DNA from: Methanobrevibacter gottschalkii DSM 11977
GTDB lineage: Archaea > Methanobacteriota > Methanobacteria > Methanobacteriales > Methanobacteriaceae
DNA: 64,000 nucleotides
Assembly (NCBI RefSeq): GCF_003814835.1
Contig: NZ_RKRG01000003.1
Location: 62,001-126,000 of the forward strand
Reading direction: 5' to 3'
In this document: positions 41,172 to 49,086 of the stretch, in pieces
Layout of the letters: each line of letters starts with the position of its first letter
Position numbering within the stretch: the stretch's first letter is position 1
The notes under the pieces: model-generated
Told to the model about the DNA's origin: nothing
The model's database searches: none
What the model saw: only the letters and a program-made list of their open reading frames with translations
Translations under genes and position numbers: made by a program

Positions 41172-41690
41172 GTGTCTAGTTATAGTAAATTAATAATTTT
41201 TATTTTAGTTTTATTATTTATTTCTGCAGCTATTTTCTTTATTGATAGTTCAATGGATAGTATTAATAGAACCATGCCTGGTGTTAGTGATTCTATTGTT
41301 AACGGGGATAAAGAGTATAATGAAGCTGTTCAATTAGTCAATGATAAAAGTTTTGATGAAGCAAAGACTAAAGCAGTATCTGCAGAGAATAACTATAATA
41401 ATAGTTTAATTAAATTAAATGGTATACGAAATAATTTTTCTTCTGATATAAATGAAGTTCAAGAAGAATATATTGGCACTGTTATTAAAGAATTGGAATT
41501 AAAAATTAATGCTGTCAATAATCTAAAAGAAGCTATTGACTGTTTTAAAATCAATTCAAATTACACAGGTACGAATTATGCTTCAAAAGCTAATGATCTA
41601 ATGTATGAGGCTACAGAGTACCAGCATGAACGTAATTCAATAGTAAAAAATAATTCAAATTTATTCAAACAACAAAATTTTGTTATATGA
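41172..41690 (+). CDS. Membrane-anchored coiled-coil protein of unknown function
   Basis: 172 residues, GTG start. Hydrophobic anchor at about 6-24 (KLIIFILVLLFISAAIFFID), then a long charged helical region (SFDEAKTKAVSAENNYNNSLIKLNG, VIKELELKINAVNNLKEAIDC) outside the membrane, likely coiled coil. It overlaps the RecJ-like gene by four bases (ATGA), so they are translationally coupled. No family recognised. No Shine-Dalgarno is clear. Confidence 0.65.
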   Translation: MSSYSKLIIFILVLLFISAAIFFIDSSMDSINRTMPGVSDSIVNGDKEYNEAVQLVNDKSFDEAKTKAVSAENNYNNSLIKLNGIRNNFSSDINEVQEEYIGTVIKELELKINAVNNLKEAIDCFKINSNYTGTNYASKANDLMYEATEYQHERNSIVKNNSNLFKQQNFVI

Positions 41691-43969
41691 CCAAGGAGTT
41701 TTTAAAGTTGAAAACAAAGTGTCCAAAATGTAAAGGAATTGGTTCAGTAGTTGTGGACTATAAAGAATGTAAAGCCTGTGGTGGAACTGGCTATGAAGAT
41801 GATGCTTTTAATATTGGTAATCATTTTAAAGGTGTAAACAGTAATGCAAAAGCGAAATTTGACTTAGGCGGAGAAGAAGATATTCCATGTGAAGCATGCA
41901 ATGGAAAAGGTCAAATCGAAGTTTTTGAAGAATGTTCTCATTGTCATGGAACTGGTCAGATTAATGTATGTAGAGATTGCGGGAAATCAATTGGAGATCA
42001 ACATGATTTATGTGCTGAGTGCGAGGAGAAAAGAAAATTGGAAAAAGCTAAGCACGATAAATTTGAAGCTCGTAGAAGTGCGGCCCGTGATGTTTACATC
42101 TTAGATTCATTATGTAAAATGAGTGATATTGACAAAGACAAATTATACAAAGGAAGAATTACAAGGGTTGAAAAATATGGTGCTTTTGTTACTCTAAACA
42201 ATAATGTTTGGGGACTTATGAGGGGTGACAACTTTGGTTATAATGTTGGAGATGATGTAATTGTATATGTTACTGCAATTAAATCTAGAGAAAGAAAAAT
42301 AGACTTAGCTCCAGCTCATGTTGAATCTTATAATATTAAAAAATTAACTAAAACATTCCCAAGGACTTTAATAGGTAAACTCGAAGAGAAAAAAGGTAGG
42401 ATGGTTAGAATTGATGGGGAGGTTCAACAGATCCAACAAACTTCCGGTCCAACTATATTCATAATTAGTGATGAAACTGGTTCTAGTGAAATTGCAGCGT
42501 TTGATAAAGCAGGTGAGAGATCATATCCGGAAATCGAACTGGGTGATGCAGTGCAAGTTGTCGGTGAAGTTAATGAACATGGTGGAAAGACACAAATTGA
42601 GTCATCTTCAATGGTAAAACTCAACGAAGAAAATACTGCAAAATTACATAAATTAATTGACGATGCATTAAACAAGAAAGCTGAACCACAACATGTTGAT
42701 TTCTTAGTTGAAAGTGATATTTTAAACAGACTTAAACCTAAGATGAGGGAAGCTGCACAAAAAATCAGAAGAGCAATACTTGATGGTAGGACAATTTTAC
42801 TCAGACACCATAATGATGCAGATGGTATTTGTTCAGGTGTTGCAATGGAAAAAGCTATTATTCCATTAATAGAGAAAGTAAATCCTAGCAATGATGCTCA
42901 ATATTATTATTTCAAAAGATCTCCTAGTAAAGCTCCATTTTATGAACTTGAGGATGTTGTTAAAGATTTATCTTTTGCACTGGAGGATCAAGAAAGGCAT
43001 GGTCAAAAATTGCCATTAATTGTTCTTTTAGATAATGGATCAACTGAAGAGGATATTGTTGCTTTGATGCAAGCCAAAATTTATGATATCGAAGTTGTTG
43101 TTATTGACCATCATTCTCCCGGTGAATTACTTACTAAAAATATTCAAGATGGAAAAATATATGGAGCTACAGTTGCAGTTGATGAATATGTTGACTGTCA
43201 TGTAAATCCTTATTTGGTTGGTGGAGATTCACAGCTTACTGCAGGAGCTCTTGCAACAGAAGTTGCACACTTAATTAATCCGGATGTAAAAGAAGTAATC
43301 AAACATCTGCCGGCTGTTGCAGCATTAGGAGATAAGGCTGAATGCAGCGAGGCTGACCAATATTTGGAAATTGCTAATCAGAAAGGTTTTGAAAGAGAAC
43401 ATTTAGCTAAAATTGCAGAATGTGTTGACTTTGAAGCATTTTTCTTAAGATTTATGAATGGCCGAGGAATAATGGATACAATTCTTGCTGTTGATAATAT
43501 TGATAAACATGAAAAGATGATTGATGCATTATATAAGGAATATCAAAAAAGAGTTGACACTCAACTTAAAGCAACACTTCCGAATATTAAAAGAACTCAA
43601 TTTGAAAACGGAATTTACTTTAATCTCATTGATGTTGAAAAATATGCACATAAGTTTACATTCCCTGCTCCAGGTAAAACTTGCGGTTTTGTCCATGATA
43701 ATGTAAAACAGGAGTTAGGTGAAGATAAACCTATTGTAACATTAGGGCATGGTCCTGATTTTGGAGTGTTCAGAGCTACTGATGCTGTTAATGAACAATA
43801 TGGATTTAATGTAAATGAAATTGTATCTAAAATGATGGATTCAGTGCCTCAAGCAGGTATTGATGGAGGAGGTCATGAATGTGCCGGATCCATCAAATAT
43901 ATTGAGGGATTAGGGGAAGAAGTTTTATCAAAAGTTATTGGAGAAATCCAATCCTTATCTAAAAACTAA
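41687..43969 (+). CDS. Archaea-specific RecJ-like DHH phosphoesterase with DnaJ-type zinc finger (COG1107)
   Basis: 760 residues. Domains in order: DnaJ-like cysteine-rich region (C-P-K-C-K-G, CKACGGTG, CEACNGKG, CSHCHGTG, about 12-85), CRDCG and CAEC knuckles, an S1 RNA-binding fold (YKGRITRVEKYGAFVTL, about 150-215), an OB fold (about 230-315), the DHH core (RHHNDADGICSG near 375 and VVIDHHSPG near 474), and DHHA1 (GIDGGGHECAGSIKYIEG near 730). Role: nuclease-type phosphoesterase in DNA repair or nucleotide turnover; specificity not shown. It is coupled to the membrane gene upstream. Confidence 0.9.
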   Translation: MTKEFLKLKTKCPKCKGIGSVVVDYKECKACGGTGYEDDAFNIGNHFKGVNSNAKAKFDLGGEEDIPCEACNGKGQIEVFEECSHCHGTGQINVCRDCGKSIGDQHDLCAECEEKRKLEKAKHDKFEARRSAARDVYILDSLCKMSDIDKDKLYKGRITRVEKYGAFVTLNNNVWGLMRGDNFGYNVGDDVIVYVTAIKSRERKIDLAPAHVESYNIKKLTKTFPRTLIGKLEEKKGRMVRIDGEVQQIQQTSGPTIFIISDETGSSEIAAFDKAGERSYPEIELGDAVQVVGEVNEHGGKTQIESSSMVKLNEENTAKLHKLIDDALNKKAEPQHVDFLVESDILNRLKPKMREAAQKIRRAILDGRTILLRHHNDADGICSGVAMEKAIIPLIEKVNPSNDAQYYYFKRSPSKAPFYELEDVVKDLSFALEDQERHGQKLPLIVLLDNGSTEEDIVALMQAKIYDIEVVVIDHHSPGELLTKNIQDGKIYGATVAVDEYVDCHVNPYLVGGDSQLTAGALATEVAHLINPDVKEVIKHLPAVAALGDKAECSEADQYLEIANQKGFEREHLAKIAECVDFEAFFLRFMNGRGIMDTILAVDNIDKHEKMIDALYKEYQKRVDTQLKATLPNIKRTQFENGIYFNLIDVEKYAHKFTFPAPGKTCGFVHDNVKQELGEDKPIVTLGHGPDFGVFRATDAVNEQYGFNVNEIVSKMMDSVPQAGIDGGGHECAGSIKYIEGLGEEVLSKVIGEIQSLSKN

Positions 43970-43977
43970 GATATAAC

Positions 43978-44871
43978 ATGACTTTAGAGAATTATTGTAA
44001 AAAATGCGGCCATAGGATTCTTCCAAATAATCCATATTGTCCCGGATGCGGATGTAAAACAATTTACACAGAAAATGACGAATCTTATGTTTTTACACCA
44101 CCGGTACATGATATTGGATTTTTTAATTTTTCAATTGATTTTTCTCCATATATTATGAGTAATCGGGATGATTTCAAATATGATATATGTCATTGCGGAT
44201 ACCTAAATGATGTAACCAATGAATTTTGTTATATGTGTGGTGCAAAAAGATTCCATAGTAAACTAGCTAGATTTTTAAAAAACAGATCCAAACCAAAATT
44301 TAATTTGGATAATGTTTTATGTGAATGCGGTGCTGTTAACTCTAAAGAGAATTCCTTTTGTGAAATGTGTGGAAAACAGCTGCATGAACATGAAACTAAA
44401 ATATACAAAAGTAATAATTACAGTAATTTTAATTTGGAATTTAAGAATTCTGTTTTCTGCTTTTGCGGTGAAGAAAACGAAGAATCTTCTCAATTCTGTA
44501 GAAACTGCGGATTGCCGTTGATAAATTATGGTCATTTATCTGACATGGCATTATTATGTGTTTGTTCTACTTTAAATGATATTAACTCTTCTTTTTGTAT
44601 TGAATGTGGATTAAACTTAAAAAAAGAGAATTCTCTTATTGTTTGTGTTTGTGGACATAAAAATCCTATTTCGGCTAAATTTTGTCAAAATTGTGAAAGG
44701 CCATTAAATCCTAAAAGATTAATTAACTCAAAAATCCTTTGTTCATGTGGGGAAATTCTTGACTGGAATACAGAGTTCTGCCCTAATTGTGGCAAAAATA
44801 TTAAAAATAGGATGATTATAAGGAATTCTATTAACAATACAGTAAAGAGTCTTAAAAGTATATTTAGGTAG
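43978..44871 (+). CDS. Protein with seven zinc ribbons in tandem
   Basis: 297 residues and no transmembrane segment. First ribbon CKKCG-CPGCG (7-24). Then six ribbons with the same spacing, C-x-C-x10-C-x2-C: CHCGYLNDVTNEFCYMC, CECG...CEMC, CFCG...CRNC, CVCS...CIEC, CVCG...CQNC and CSCG...CPNC. The usual zinc-ribbon first knuckle is C-x-x-C, so the repeated C-x-C is distinctive. Linkers are short and variable. It begins eight bases after the RecJ-like gene, and a zinc-ribbon/HExxH gene follows. Likely metal-dependent binding of nucleic acid or protein; function unknown. Confidence 0.8.
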   Translation: MTLENYCKKCGHRILPNNPYCPGCGCKTIYTENDESYVFTPPVHDIGFFNFSIDFSPYIMSNRDDFKYDICHCGYLNDVTNEFCYMCGAKRFHSKLARFLKNRSKPKFNLDNVLCECGAVNSKENSFCEMCGKQLHEHETKIYKSNNYSNFNLEFKNSVFCFCGEENEESSQFCRNCGLPLINYGHLSDMALLCVCSTLNDINSSFCIECGLNLKKENSLIVCVCGHKNPISAKFCQNCERPLNPKRLINSKILCSCGEILDWNTEFCPNCGKNIKNRMIIRNSINNTVKSLKSIFR

Positions 44872-44878
44872 TGATTGT

Positions 44879-45856
44879 TTGAAAAAATGTGATGTTTGCG
44901 GAACTTTAAATTTTAAAGATAATAATTACTGTACTCATTGTGGCAATAAATTTATTTTTGAGCATGTCTGTCCTTATTGTGGTTCAATTAATGAGGATTA
45001 TGCGAATTTCTGTGCTAATTGTAATGGGCAAATCAATCCAATTTCTATTAATGATTTCGATATATTATTTAGTGAATTTAATGAAAATTGTTTATTAAAT
45101 GCTAAAATAAGTGATGAAAAATATAATGATTTATTAAGAAATATTTTTTTAAGAGCAGATTTTACAGAAATTCATGGCAATACCATAAAAGATAAAATTC
45201 TAAACTTAGCTAGTATTTTCACGCAATGTAAACCTAAATCAAGAGGCTATGAAAGAGGATTTATATTTTTAGGCAATTATATTTATTATGATGATAGATT
45301 AGACGAATCTGTTCAAATTGCAACTATTATTCATGAATTAGCACATTATTTAATATTCAGTATTATTGAATCCTTATTGTGTGATATATTTAATGTAAAA
45401 ACATCAACAACATTACAAAGCTTCATATGGTATTTTTTAATGATTCCTGAATTTAAAATCATGAATGAATACTGTGCACATACTGTTGAAGGCAGATTCA
45501 TTCCATATGGATATCAGAATTATGGTTCTTTTAATCTATTGGTAAAAAACACATCTTTTGATGAAGATTCTATAAAAACCATGGAAATGTTCGGTAATTC
45601 ATTTGCAAATGAAATAATCATTTATCTGGAAAAATATATTGGAAATGATTTAAGACAGGAAATAAAATTACAATATAAAATGGATTTAAAAAGTCCGAGT
45701 TATGATTCAATATTAATGGAAACTGATGAGTGTTTTAATTTAAATGATAAAAATAGGATGTTATTGAAAATTTTGTATGATGTTTTTAAGGAAGCTTCAA
45801 ATCCAAATGTTATATGTGAGTTAAAAAATATTAAAGAGGGGATTGATTTAAATTAA
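44879..45856 (+). CDS. Zinc-ribbon protein with HExxH metallopeptidase-like motif
   Basis: 325 residues, start TTG. Two N-terminal zinc ribbons (CDVCGTLNFKDNNYCTHCG, CPYCGSINEDYANFCANC). Middle region has IATIIHELAHYLIFSII near residues 140-155, an HExxH motif typical of zinc metallopeptidases; a third ligand candidate (for example Glu in NEYCAHTVEGRF near 200) follows. It is not a recognised peptidase family. It follows the seven-ribbon gene by seven bases and converges with a winged-helix gene. Confidence 0.72.
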   Translation: MKKCDVCGTLNFKDNNYCTHCGNKFIFEHVCPYCGSINEDYANFCANCNGQINPISINDFDILFSEFNENCLLNAKISDEKYNDLLRNIFLRADFTEIHGNTIKDKILNLASIFTQCKPKSRGYERGFIFLGNYIYYDDRLDESVQIATIIHELAHYLIFSIIESLLCDIFNVKTSTTLQSFIWYFLMIPEFKIMNEYCAHTVEGRFIPYGYQNYGSFNLLVKNTSFDEDSIKTMEMFGNSFANEIIIYLEKYIGNDLRQEIKLQYKMDLKSPSYDSILMETDECFNLNDKNRMLLKILYDVFKEASNPNVICELKNIKEGIDLN

Positions 45857-46149: not shown

Positions 46150-46288
46150 ATTTTAGTATTTTATTTTCGTACTATAAAAAATTTTATAACATATTATACA
46201 CTAATTTAATTATTGTTCATATTTCAATTAATTTATTAATGTATAACTTTAAAAATTATATCAAATAATTTGTGTGTACTTGATTTAT

Positions 46289-46900
46289 ATGAAATGTAAG
46301 TATTGTGGTATTGAGAATAAGAAAAGTGCTAAATTTTGTACAAGTTGTGGTAAACCACTAAATGAAAGTCCCGAACCTACCGGAGGGAACTCTAAACTTA
46401 TCATAATTGCATTAATTGCTATTATAATAATTCTTGTTGGAACTATTGGATTTTTTGTATTGAACAATAATTTTAATAGTCATGATAGTGAGATTCCAAA
46501 TAATACAGTTTCTTCTCAGGAAAGTAACTCTGCAAATATTCAAGATTCCGATAATGGTGGGGATGTCAAAACTCAGGTGACATCATCTCAGACAACTAAC
46601 TCTAAATCATGGGAGCCGATTGGAAGTTATTCAGGTTCAGGTTCAGGTTCTAAAACAATTACGGTACCTGAAGGTAAAATAAAAGTGGAATTTTCTGCAT
46701 ATCCTATTAAAAATTATGCTACTAATTATTTAACAGTTTCCGGATCTAATGGTGAGTCTGGTGGAGTAGATTGGGGTTCTCATAGTGCTGTTAAGACTAA
46801 ATCTGATTCATTTATCTATACTTCCAGCTCTTCTGAGACATTTACTATTGATTATTATGAAACTGTAAGTTGGGAAGTTCATTTTTACAGGTATCAGTAA
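46289..46900 (+). CDS. Zinc-ribbon membrane protein with extracytoplasmic domain
   Basis: 203 residues. Cytoplasmic zinc ribbon CKYCGIENKKSAKFCTSCG (about 3-21), a transmembrane helix near 35-55 (LIIIALIAIIIILVGTIGFFVL), a Ser/Asn-rich linker, then a beta-rich outer domain with a GSGSGS stretch. GTG 46274 is open upstream, but ATG 46289 starts at the ribbon. This zinc_ribbon_2-TM layout is common in Methanobrevibacter and usually of unknown role. Confidence 0.75.
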   Translation: MKCKYCGIENKKSAKFCTSCGKPLNESPEPTGGNSKLIIIALIAIIIILVGTIGFFVLNNNFNSHDSEIPNNTVSSQESNSANIQDSDNGGDVKTQVTSSQTTNSKSWEPIGSYSGSGSGSKTITVPEGKIKVEFSAYPIKNYATNYLTVSGSNGESGGVDWGSHSAVKTKSDSFIYTSSSSETFTIDYYETVSWEVHFYRYQ

Positions 46901-47049: not shown

Positions 47050-47760
47050 ATGTTTTTTGATCTGAATATTAAAGGGAGTACATTAGAAAATAATATCAAA
47101 TTAGCTAAAGAAGCTTCTTTTTATGGTTGGAATCATATTAATTTTTCATATAATGCAAACAACTTTTTAAATGCATTAAATTTTAAAGATGAGTTGAATA
47201 AGGCATTGGGAGATATCATTGACTTTGATTATACTTTAGAAATCAAATCGTCAAACATTAATGATATTCGGAAGTCTGTTAATAAATTTAGGAATAGGTC
47301 CTCATGTATCTCCGTTGTTGGCGGTGATTTAAAGGTCAATAGAGCCACATTAGAAAATATAAAAATAGATGTTTTATCAAGACCATATCTTAGAAGATAT
47401 GATTGTGGTTTAAATCATGTACTTGCAAAGGAAGCAGAAAAGAATAATGTAGCAGTCGAGTTATGTTTTAAGGATGTATTGAAAAGCTATTTGTCTTATA
47501 GATCAAAAATTCTTTCTAATTTTAAAGATATTTATACATTGTATAGAAAATTTGACTTTCCTTTGGTGCTGTCTTCAAGAGCGGAATCTGTATTTGATAT
47601 TAGAACTACTCATGATTTTATTACTTTTTTTAAACAAACCGGTTTAACAGATGCAGAAATTAATAAATCCTTTAAAACAGCAGATAATATTTTAAAATAC
47701 AATAAGAATAGGGAAAATTTAATTTTGAAGGGTGTTATGAGGGTTACAGATGAAACTTAA
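47050..47760 (+). CDS. rnp3: Ribonuclease P protein subunit Rpp30 (component 3)
   Basis: 236-residue PHP-like barrel subunit of archaeal RNase P, which trims the 5' end of pre-tRNA. Start MFFDLNIKGSTLENNIKLAKEASFYGW and KVNRATLENIKIDVLSRPYLRRYDCGLNHVLAKEA are characteristic. Overlaps rnp2 by eleven bases. Usually adjacent to the L15e/COG1325 genes, which lie at the start of this window instead. Confidence 0.92.
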   Translation: MFFDLNIKGSTLENNIKLAKEASFYGWNHINFSYNANNFLNALNFKDELNKALGDIIDFDYTLEIKSSNINDIRKSVNKFRNRSSCISVVGGDLKVNRATLENIKIDVLSRPYLRRYDCGLNHVLAKEAEKNNVAVELCFKDVLKSYLSYRSKILSNFKDIYTLYRKFDFPLVLSSRAESVFDIRTTHDFITFFKQTGLTDAEINKSFKTADNILKYNKNRENLILKGVMRVTDET

Positions 47761-48106
47761 GGTATTGCCACCTACACTTAGGAAAAATAATAGGTATCTT
47801 ACTGTAGATGTTAAGGTTACCTGTCAAATTACAAAAGATGATTTAGTTGCAATTGTCTGGGATGCATGTATCCGTTTTCAGGGGGAACTTAACACTGCTA
47901 ATTTTAATTTATGGGTTATGAAATTCTTTGAAATTGAAAAACGTGATGATTATTATAGGTATAGATCAATTATCAGATGTCAACGGGATTATGTTGATGA
48001 AGTAAGGTCTTCTTTTGCTTTGACCAATAGATATGGTAATAATATGATTTCAATTACTACTATTGGATTGTCGGGTACTATAAAATCATCTGGAAAATAC
48101 ATTTAG
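47750..48106 (+). CDS. rnp2: Ribonuclease P protein subunit Rnp2 (Pop5)
   Basis: 118 residues. Pop5 homologue that pairs with Rpp30 in archaeal RNase P. Typical: MKLKVLPPTLRKNNRYLTVDV at the start, NLWVMKFFEIEKRDDYYRYRSIIRCQRDYVDEVRSSFALT. Its start overlaps rnp3, so the two subunits are translated together. psmA follows after a promoter-containing gap of 212 bases. Confidence 0.9.
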   Translation: MKLKVLPPTLRKNNRYLTVDVKVTCQITKDDLVAIVWDACIRFQGELNTANFNLWVMKFFEIEKRDDYYRYRSIIRCQRDYVDEVRSSFALTNRYGNNMISITTIGLSGTIKSSGKYI

Positions 48107-48318: not shown

Positions 48319-49086
48319 ATGCAACCTTTACAAAATGCTGGATATGATAGAGCAATTACTGTATTTAGCCCAGATGGAAGACTTTTCCAAGTAGAATATG
48401 CAAGAGAAGCTGTTAAAAGAGGAACTACATCTATAGGTGTAAAAAGTTCTGAAGGTATTGTTTTAGCTGTTGATAAAAGAACTACTTCTAAATTAGTTGA
48501 AGCATCATCTATTGAAAAAATATTCAAAATTGATGATCACATTGGAGCAGCTACTTCAGGTCTTGTTGCTGATGCAAGAGCTTTAGTTGAAAGAGCAAGA
48601 GTTGAAGCACAAATAAATAAAATAACTTATAGTGAACCTATTCGCGTAACTAGCTTATCTAAAAAATTATGTGACATGTTACAATTATACACTCAAAATG
48701 GTGGAGTAAGACCATTTGGTTCTGCTTTAATCATTGGTGGAGTATATGATGGTGTATGTAAATTATTCGAAACTGACCCAAGCGGAGCATTAATTGAATA
48801 CAAAGCTACAGCTATTGGTTCAGGCAGATCTGCAGCTATGGAAATCTTTGAAGAAAAATACGAAGATGATTTAACATTAGATGAAGCTATTGAATTAGCA
48901 TTAACTGCTATTAATGAAGCTACTGATCATGATACTGTATCTAATAATGTAGAAATAGCCGTTATTAAAGTCGATGGCGAAAAATATGTAAAACTTTCTC
49001 AAGATGAAGTACAGAAATACATTGATGAAGTACTTGTTGAAGAAGAGGAAGAAGAGTCTGCTGATTCTCAAGAAGATGAAGAATAA
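48319..49086 (+). CDS. psmA: Proteasome alpha subunit
   Basis: 255 residues. Alpha subunit of the 20S proteasome, forming the outer rings and gate. [42 protein letters not shown] carries the family signature. The acidic C-terminal tail [15 protein letters not shown] is common in archaea. Start ATG 48319 after GAGGT. Followed by the SBDS and exosome genes, the usual archaeal order. Confidence 0.97.

Follow-up and report, generated by a model that had tools for sequence, protein, structure and literature searches.

A conserved seven-zinc-ribbon protein of Methanobrevibacter as a candidate partner of a putative metallopeptidase

Introduction

Two-gene modules combining a peptidase with a partner protein have been described, namely ImmR/ImmA, CapH/CapP and DdrO/IrrE (PMC10233336). 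A locus of Methanobrevibacter gottschalkii DSM 11977 was compared with these systems. It lies in a stretch of 64,000 nucleotides (NCBI RefSeq assembly GCF_003814835.1, contig NZ_RKRG01000003.1, positions 62,001 to 126,000 of the forward strand), hereafter called the window, and consists of a gene for a seven-zinc-ribbon protein (P1) followed by a gene for a putative metallopeptidase (P2). Since Pfam and NCBIfam gave no match to an HTH repressor domain in P1, unlike in an ImmA/ImmR-type module, only the layout is comparable with ImmR/ImmA, CapH/CapP and DdrO/IrrE.

Archaea have many small zinc-ribbon proteins, few of which have been explained. P1 had been singled out for its ribbon array in an earlier note made from the sequence. 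The pairing of P1 with P2 and the recurrence of this pairing at other loci are new; the partner gene had been missed.

Results

The Ribbon Array of P1

The open reading frame of P1 and its ribbons are located in the window as follows. Ribbon 1 was assigned by motif reading and ribbons 2 to 7 by motif reading and a DNA pattern, supported for ribbon 5 by conservation.

43978..44871 (including stop), + strand: P1, seven-zinc-ribbon protein, 297 aa, with orthologues in 64/67 congeneric genomes
43996..44049, + strand: ribbon 1, CKKC-x10-CPGC, CxxC type
44188..44238, + strand: ribbon 2, CHC-x10-CYMC
44320..44370, + strand: ribbon 3, CEC-x10-CEMC
44458..44508, + strand: ribbon 4, CFC-x10-CRNC
44557..44607, + strand: ribbon 5, CVC-x10-CIEC
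44644..44694, + strand: ribbon 6, CVC-x10-CQNC
44740..44790, + strand: ribbon 7, CSC-x10-CPNC

The Cys4 motifs start at residues 7, 71, 115, 161, 194, 223 and 255. One is of the type CxxC-x10-CxxC and six are of the type CxC-x10-CxxC, which amounts to 28 ribbon cysteines in 297 aa. Thus, the earlier count of seven ribbons in 297 residues, six of them with a CxC knuckle and x10 spacing, was borne out, and the coordinates and length of the open reading frame were exact. The array had also been called regular; this holds for the x10 spacing within the six ribbons, but not for the spacing between ribbons, which is uneven (successive ribbons start 29 to 64 residues apart). In ribbon 5, about 95% of the orthologues have Ser in place of the Gly that follows the knuckle.

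The CxC-x10-CxxC codon pattern was matched seven times in the window, whereas shuffles predict 0.11 matches; P1 accounts for six of the seven. Genome-wide ribbon counts were obtained from DNA patterns and reading by eye. Among 37 CxC-x10-CxxC matches in the whole genome, seven appeared ribbon-like, namely the six of P1 and one at C2:345219, whereas the CxxC version of the search returned ribbon-like matches by the dozen. Thus, the CxC knuckle is unusual within this genome. A second ribbon-array protein of the same genome is encoded outside the window, where three ribbon genes adjoin (L126:2284-4905, on G000:C3); it comprises five CxxC ribbons in 250 aa.

P1 scored above the cut-offs of two generic Pfam models: Zn_Ribbon_1 (PF13240; 75.2 bits, cut-off 25, six matched stretches) and DZR (PF12773; 74.1 bits, cut-off 27.3, five matched stretches). 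It differs from both in that the canonical CxxC...CxxC arrangement occurs in ribbon 1 only, ribbons 2-7 being CxC...CxxC, and in carrying seven ribbons per chain with no other annotated domain. Four stretches also matched NCBIfam NF045510, a 4-Cys prefix domain of kinases (31.9, domain cut-off 24); since P1 has no kinase domain, this likeness is one of ribbon type only. Beyond such generic ribbon models, no Pfam or NCBIfam model spans the whole of P1, there is no NCBIfam equivalog, and a literature search found no paper on P1. By these profile comparisons, no named family covers P1 or P2 as a whole. The suggestion that P1 may define a new family is in line with this result and with its occurrence in a single genus.

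P1 Is Conserved throughout One Genus

Of 67 genomes in the Methanobrevibacter group (same GTDB genus), 64 encode a full-length orthologue of P1, with 45-79% identity; the 84 genomes from the remaining 18 genera of the order encode none (E up to 1e-15). A phylum-wide profile search gave the same genus restriction, and the named orthologue records are all from species of Methanobrevibacter, among them M. thaueri and M. millerae. Three genomes lacked a P1 match; in G032 the site is present on a contig, and in the other two the contigs end near the gene of the upstream DHH phosphoesterase.

Across 64 distinct orthologues, 26 of the 28 ribbon cysteine columns are invariant and the remaining two are conserved at 98%. 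A ribbon of P1 matched best to the ribbon at its own position in other species in 444 of 448 cases. At non-cysteine positions, orthologous ribbons are 43-69% identical, compared to 13-39% for different ribbons. Therefore, the array is old and its ribbons are not interchangeable; a recent tandem duplication of the ribbons was ruled out by the same values. Either knuckle length is tolerated, since ribbons 2 and 3 are of the CxxC form in the divergent orthologues L036 and L045. An eighth ribbon has been acquired in one species (L035). As judged from the alignments, P1 is an ancient, constrained gene. A viral or mobile origin was rejected, since IMG/VR contained no relatives of P1 or P2, phage records none of P1 and plasmid records none of P2.

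P2 and the Predicted Contact Sites of P1

The gene downstream of P1 has the following features, of which the metal site and the third ligand were assigned by invariance.

44879..45856, + strand: P2, TTG start, 325 aa; two CxxC ribbons at the N-terminus and a putative metallopeptidase domain (helical, HExxH)
44888..44941, + strand: P2 ribbon 1, residues 4-21
44969..45022, + strand: P2 ribbon 2, residues 31-48
45332..45346, + strand: P2 HELAH (residues 152-156), which would supply the zinc site and the catalytic Glu
45467..45469, + strand: P2 E197, putative third metal ligand

H152, E153, H156 and E197 are invariant in 63/63 orthologues, and in the paralogue alignment 39 of 42 rows retain E197. 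Genome G011 has fragments of P2 on a different contig. The P2 of the window scored 17.8 bits against Pfam Peptidase_M78 (cut-off 22). Strand-helix matches to M78 were obtained for 41 of 44 P2 members at E up to 0.1, the best being L115 with 25.2 bits and the others shown being lower. The match covers about positions 17-58 of the 123 profile positions and leaves the region of the third ligand unmatched. Similarly, an hhalign comparison of the P2 profile with local M78 proteins was weak, with a probability of 46% and a local match ending after HExxH. Since the match is mostly below the cut-off and confined to the HExxH half, P2 is called an M78-like putative metallopeptidase rather than a member of M78. 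It would presumably act as a protease.

Two segments of P1 outside the ribbons stood out, the first by conservation and modelling and the second by modelling.

44095..44157, + strand: P1 residues 40-60 (TPPVHDIGFFNFSIDFSPYIM), candidate partner-binding motif
44800..44865, + strand: P1 C-terminal basic amphipathic helix, residues 275-296 (modelled)

Residues 40-60 are situated between ribbons 1 and 2 and follow the consensus PPIHNIGFFNFxIDFSPYI, in which G47, F48, F49, F55 and P57 are invariant in 64/64 orthologues. Despite this strong conservation, residues 38-63 were modelled with pLDDT below 50. A conserved linker that is predicted to be disordered is typical of a motif folding on a partner. 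Ribbons 4-7 were modelled with pLDDT of about 80-94. The last 25 residues contain seven K/R and no D/E, with a hydrophobic moment of 0.67. The linker motif and the basic C-terminal helix are named here as candidate contact sites. The isoelectric points are opposite, with 8.2 for P1 and 4.9 for P2. A PDB fold search with the models of P1 and P2 gave no match at or below E 0.001.

P2 Homologues at Other Loci

Four genera of the family have P2 homologues at further loci. Those bearing ribbons adjoin another ribbon gene in 25 of 28 cases, compared to 0 of 13 for ribbon-less homologues (Fisher 3e-8, uncorrected for kinship among the loci, which are not phylogenetically independent); the background is 15/215 ORFs. 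The partner genes are often convergent, and their products are larger, mostly single-ribbon proteins, several with a SAP domain. Beyond the ribbons they share no clear homology with P1, so a common arrangement need not reflect a common mechanism.

Two ribbon-less homologues, at L136:4548-6146 and L137:12793-14292, carry an N-terminal MrcB_N domain besides the P2-like HExxH domain and possibly form a conflict-related branch. PADLOC defence models gave no match. Large proteins of about 850 and 1167 aa with a P2-like domain are encoded at L181:2345-4897, L182:2947-5496, L183:2098-5601 and L184:4220-7720.

The Methanobacteriaceae may tentatively be credited with an undescribed family of two-gene modules, although we hold this proposal with clearly less than even confidence. 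A ribbon-tagged HExxH peptidase would be matched via its ribbons to a ribbon-tagged partner; P1 and P2 would be the fixed, genus-core version, and other versions would have SAP partners or, when ribbon-less, fused domains such as MrcB_N.

Neighbourhood and Co-Inheritance of P1 and P2

The gene upstream of P1 belongs to the same run.

41687..43969, + strand: DHH phosphoesterase matching S1, OB and DnaJ-type Zn finger domains

P1 begins 8 bp past the end of this gene, and the order DHH-P1-P2 is conserved. Since the DHH gene is conserved across the order, including where P1 is absent, it is regarded as a neighbour and not as a part of the module. In genus g26 (L155-L157), the DHH match begins only at about residue 131, and the N-terminal zinc region is apparently missing.

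Genes for desulfoferrodoxin, NifS and NifU lie near P1 in most synteny loci. The gene at 46274-46900 (+ strand), encoding a ribbon, a hydrophobic segment and a Ser/Thr-rich region, is near P1 in 39 loci and showed no co-evolution with P1 or P2. Two genes at 47050-48106 (+ strand), which we take to encode the RNase P protein subunits p30 and Pop5, lie directly upstream of a proteasome-like gene at 48319, and the order following P1-P2 is kept in most synteny loci.

P1 and P2 lie side by side in the same orientation in 24/24 synteny loci. They are separated by -4 to +10 bp at 62 of 63 loci; only L045 departs from this, with an 80-N assembly gap. An apparent P1-P2 fusion in L045 (a 615-aa open frame) was rejected, since the frame crosses this scaffold gap. 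In G032, the spanning contig has neither gene, and the DHH gene is followed about 190 bp on by a wHTH gene. Since G032 nests in the DHH tree with G108 and G098, both of which carry P1 and P2, the two genes were lost together. The mirror-tree distance correlation of P1 and P2 was 0.90, with a partial r of 0.70 after removal of the DHH (species) signal; this value was reached in 0 of 2000 permutations and was 0.64 within the main clade. With other neighbours, the partial r ranged from 0.05 to 0.26 for P1 and from -0.11 to 0.04 for P2. Being inherited, lost and evolving together suggests a pair working together; adjacency and correlated rates can also stem from co-regulation or from transfer as one unit.

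The same neighbourhood may be read differently. P1 could act with the upstream DHH phosphoesterase as a nucleic-acid binder, its array and basic tail gripping RNA or single-stranded DNA. The closeness and conserved order of the two genes, the S1, OB and Zn finger matches of the DHH protein and the basic C-terminal helix speak for this, as do the SAP domains of several paralogue partners, which are usually nucleic-acid binding. However, the DHH gene occurs order-wide without P1 and was kept in G032 when P1 and P2 were lost, P1 matched no nucleic-acid-specific family, and with DHH controlled P1 tracks P2 and not its other neighbours. This reading is considered unlikely.

P1 might also be an ordinary, lineage-specific long ribbon protein linked to P2 by co-transcription only. 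Methanogens carry many ribbon genes, this genome has its dozens of CxxC ribbons including the five-ribbon protein, and generic Pfam models cover the array of P1. Such a protein would not be expected to co-vary with P2 so much more strongly than the other genes of the run (at most 0.26), to disappear jointly with it in G032, or to belong with a peptidase-like gene whose paralogues elsewhere pair with ribbon genes too; we regard this account as very doubtful. Likewise very doubtful, finally, is a zinc store or a redox/zinc sensor with labile CxC sites releasing zinc or forming disulfides under stress: the density of ribbon cysteines, the CxC knuckle unusual in this genome and the nearby desulfoferrodoxin, NifS and NifU genes would suit it, but the ribbons are individually distinct and conserved, unlike an interchangeable store, zinc ribbons are normally tight structural sites, a metal transport gene never travels with P1, and dfx co-varies weakly with it (partial r 0.21). 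The joint loss without DHH, the ribbon identities and the P2-specific co-variation weigh against all three alternatives.

Discussion

We favour, with somewhat better than even confidence, the view that P1 is a multi-ribbon partner of P2, i.e., a scaffold, regulator or substrate with seven non-equivalent structural zinc ribbons. P1 would be produced and passed on jointly with P2, a ribbon-bearing protein resembling HExxH metallopeptidases. The rigid C-terminal block of ribbons 4-7, the disordered conserved linker motif and the basic amphipathic tail would dock P2, and the same parts would also dock a third partner or site, be it protein, nucleic acid or membrane. The activity of P2 may thereby be directed, restrained or turned on P1 itself, in broad analogy to ImmA/ImmR and IrrE/DdrO. 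On this view, P1 and P2 would be in physical contact, the ribbons of P1 would presumably bind zinc, and P1 might serve as scaffold, inhibitor or substrate.

The retention of individual ribbon identity argues for distinct surfaces on P1. Multivalent binding, as proposed in the earlier note, fits an array kept ribbon by ribbon next to a P2 that also has ribbons. The metal-loading role proposed alongside it found no support: the cysteines form structural-type Cys4 sites, the ribbons are non-equivalent, and the companion is peptidase-like, with no transporter or metallochaperone.

P1 represents an archaeal ribbon protein with a specific candidate partner and a statistical signature, i.e., ribbon peptidase genes adjoin ribbon genes and their ribbon-less homologues do not. 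If ribbons pair P1 with P2, a class of orphan ribbon proteins would gain a function. Gut methanogens, of which some are perhaps culturable, would be seen to have a peptidase system in the genus core, and the short CxC knuckle would be able to persist as a stable ribbon variant.

Among known proteins, DZANK1 (PDB 11xu) was the sole PDB sequence match of the P1 profile (E 0.028) and likewise has several ribbons in series. Unlike P1, it is eukaryotic and has CxxC ribbons and ankyrin repeats, so that the likeness is one of generic ribbon features. Compared with ImmA/IrrE, P2 leaves the second half of the M78 model unmatched, but shares the HExxH motif and the M78-like strand-helix match, and P1 and P2 together share the two-gene layout of peptidase and partner.
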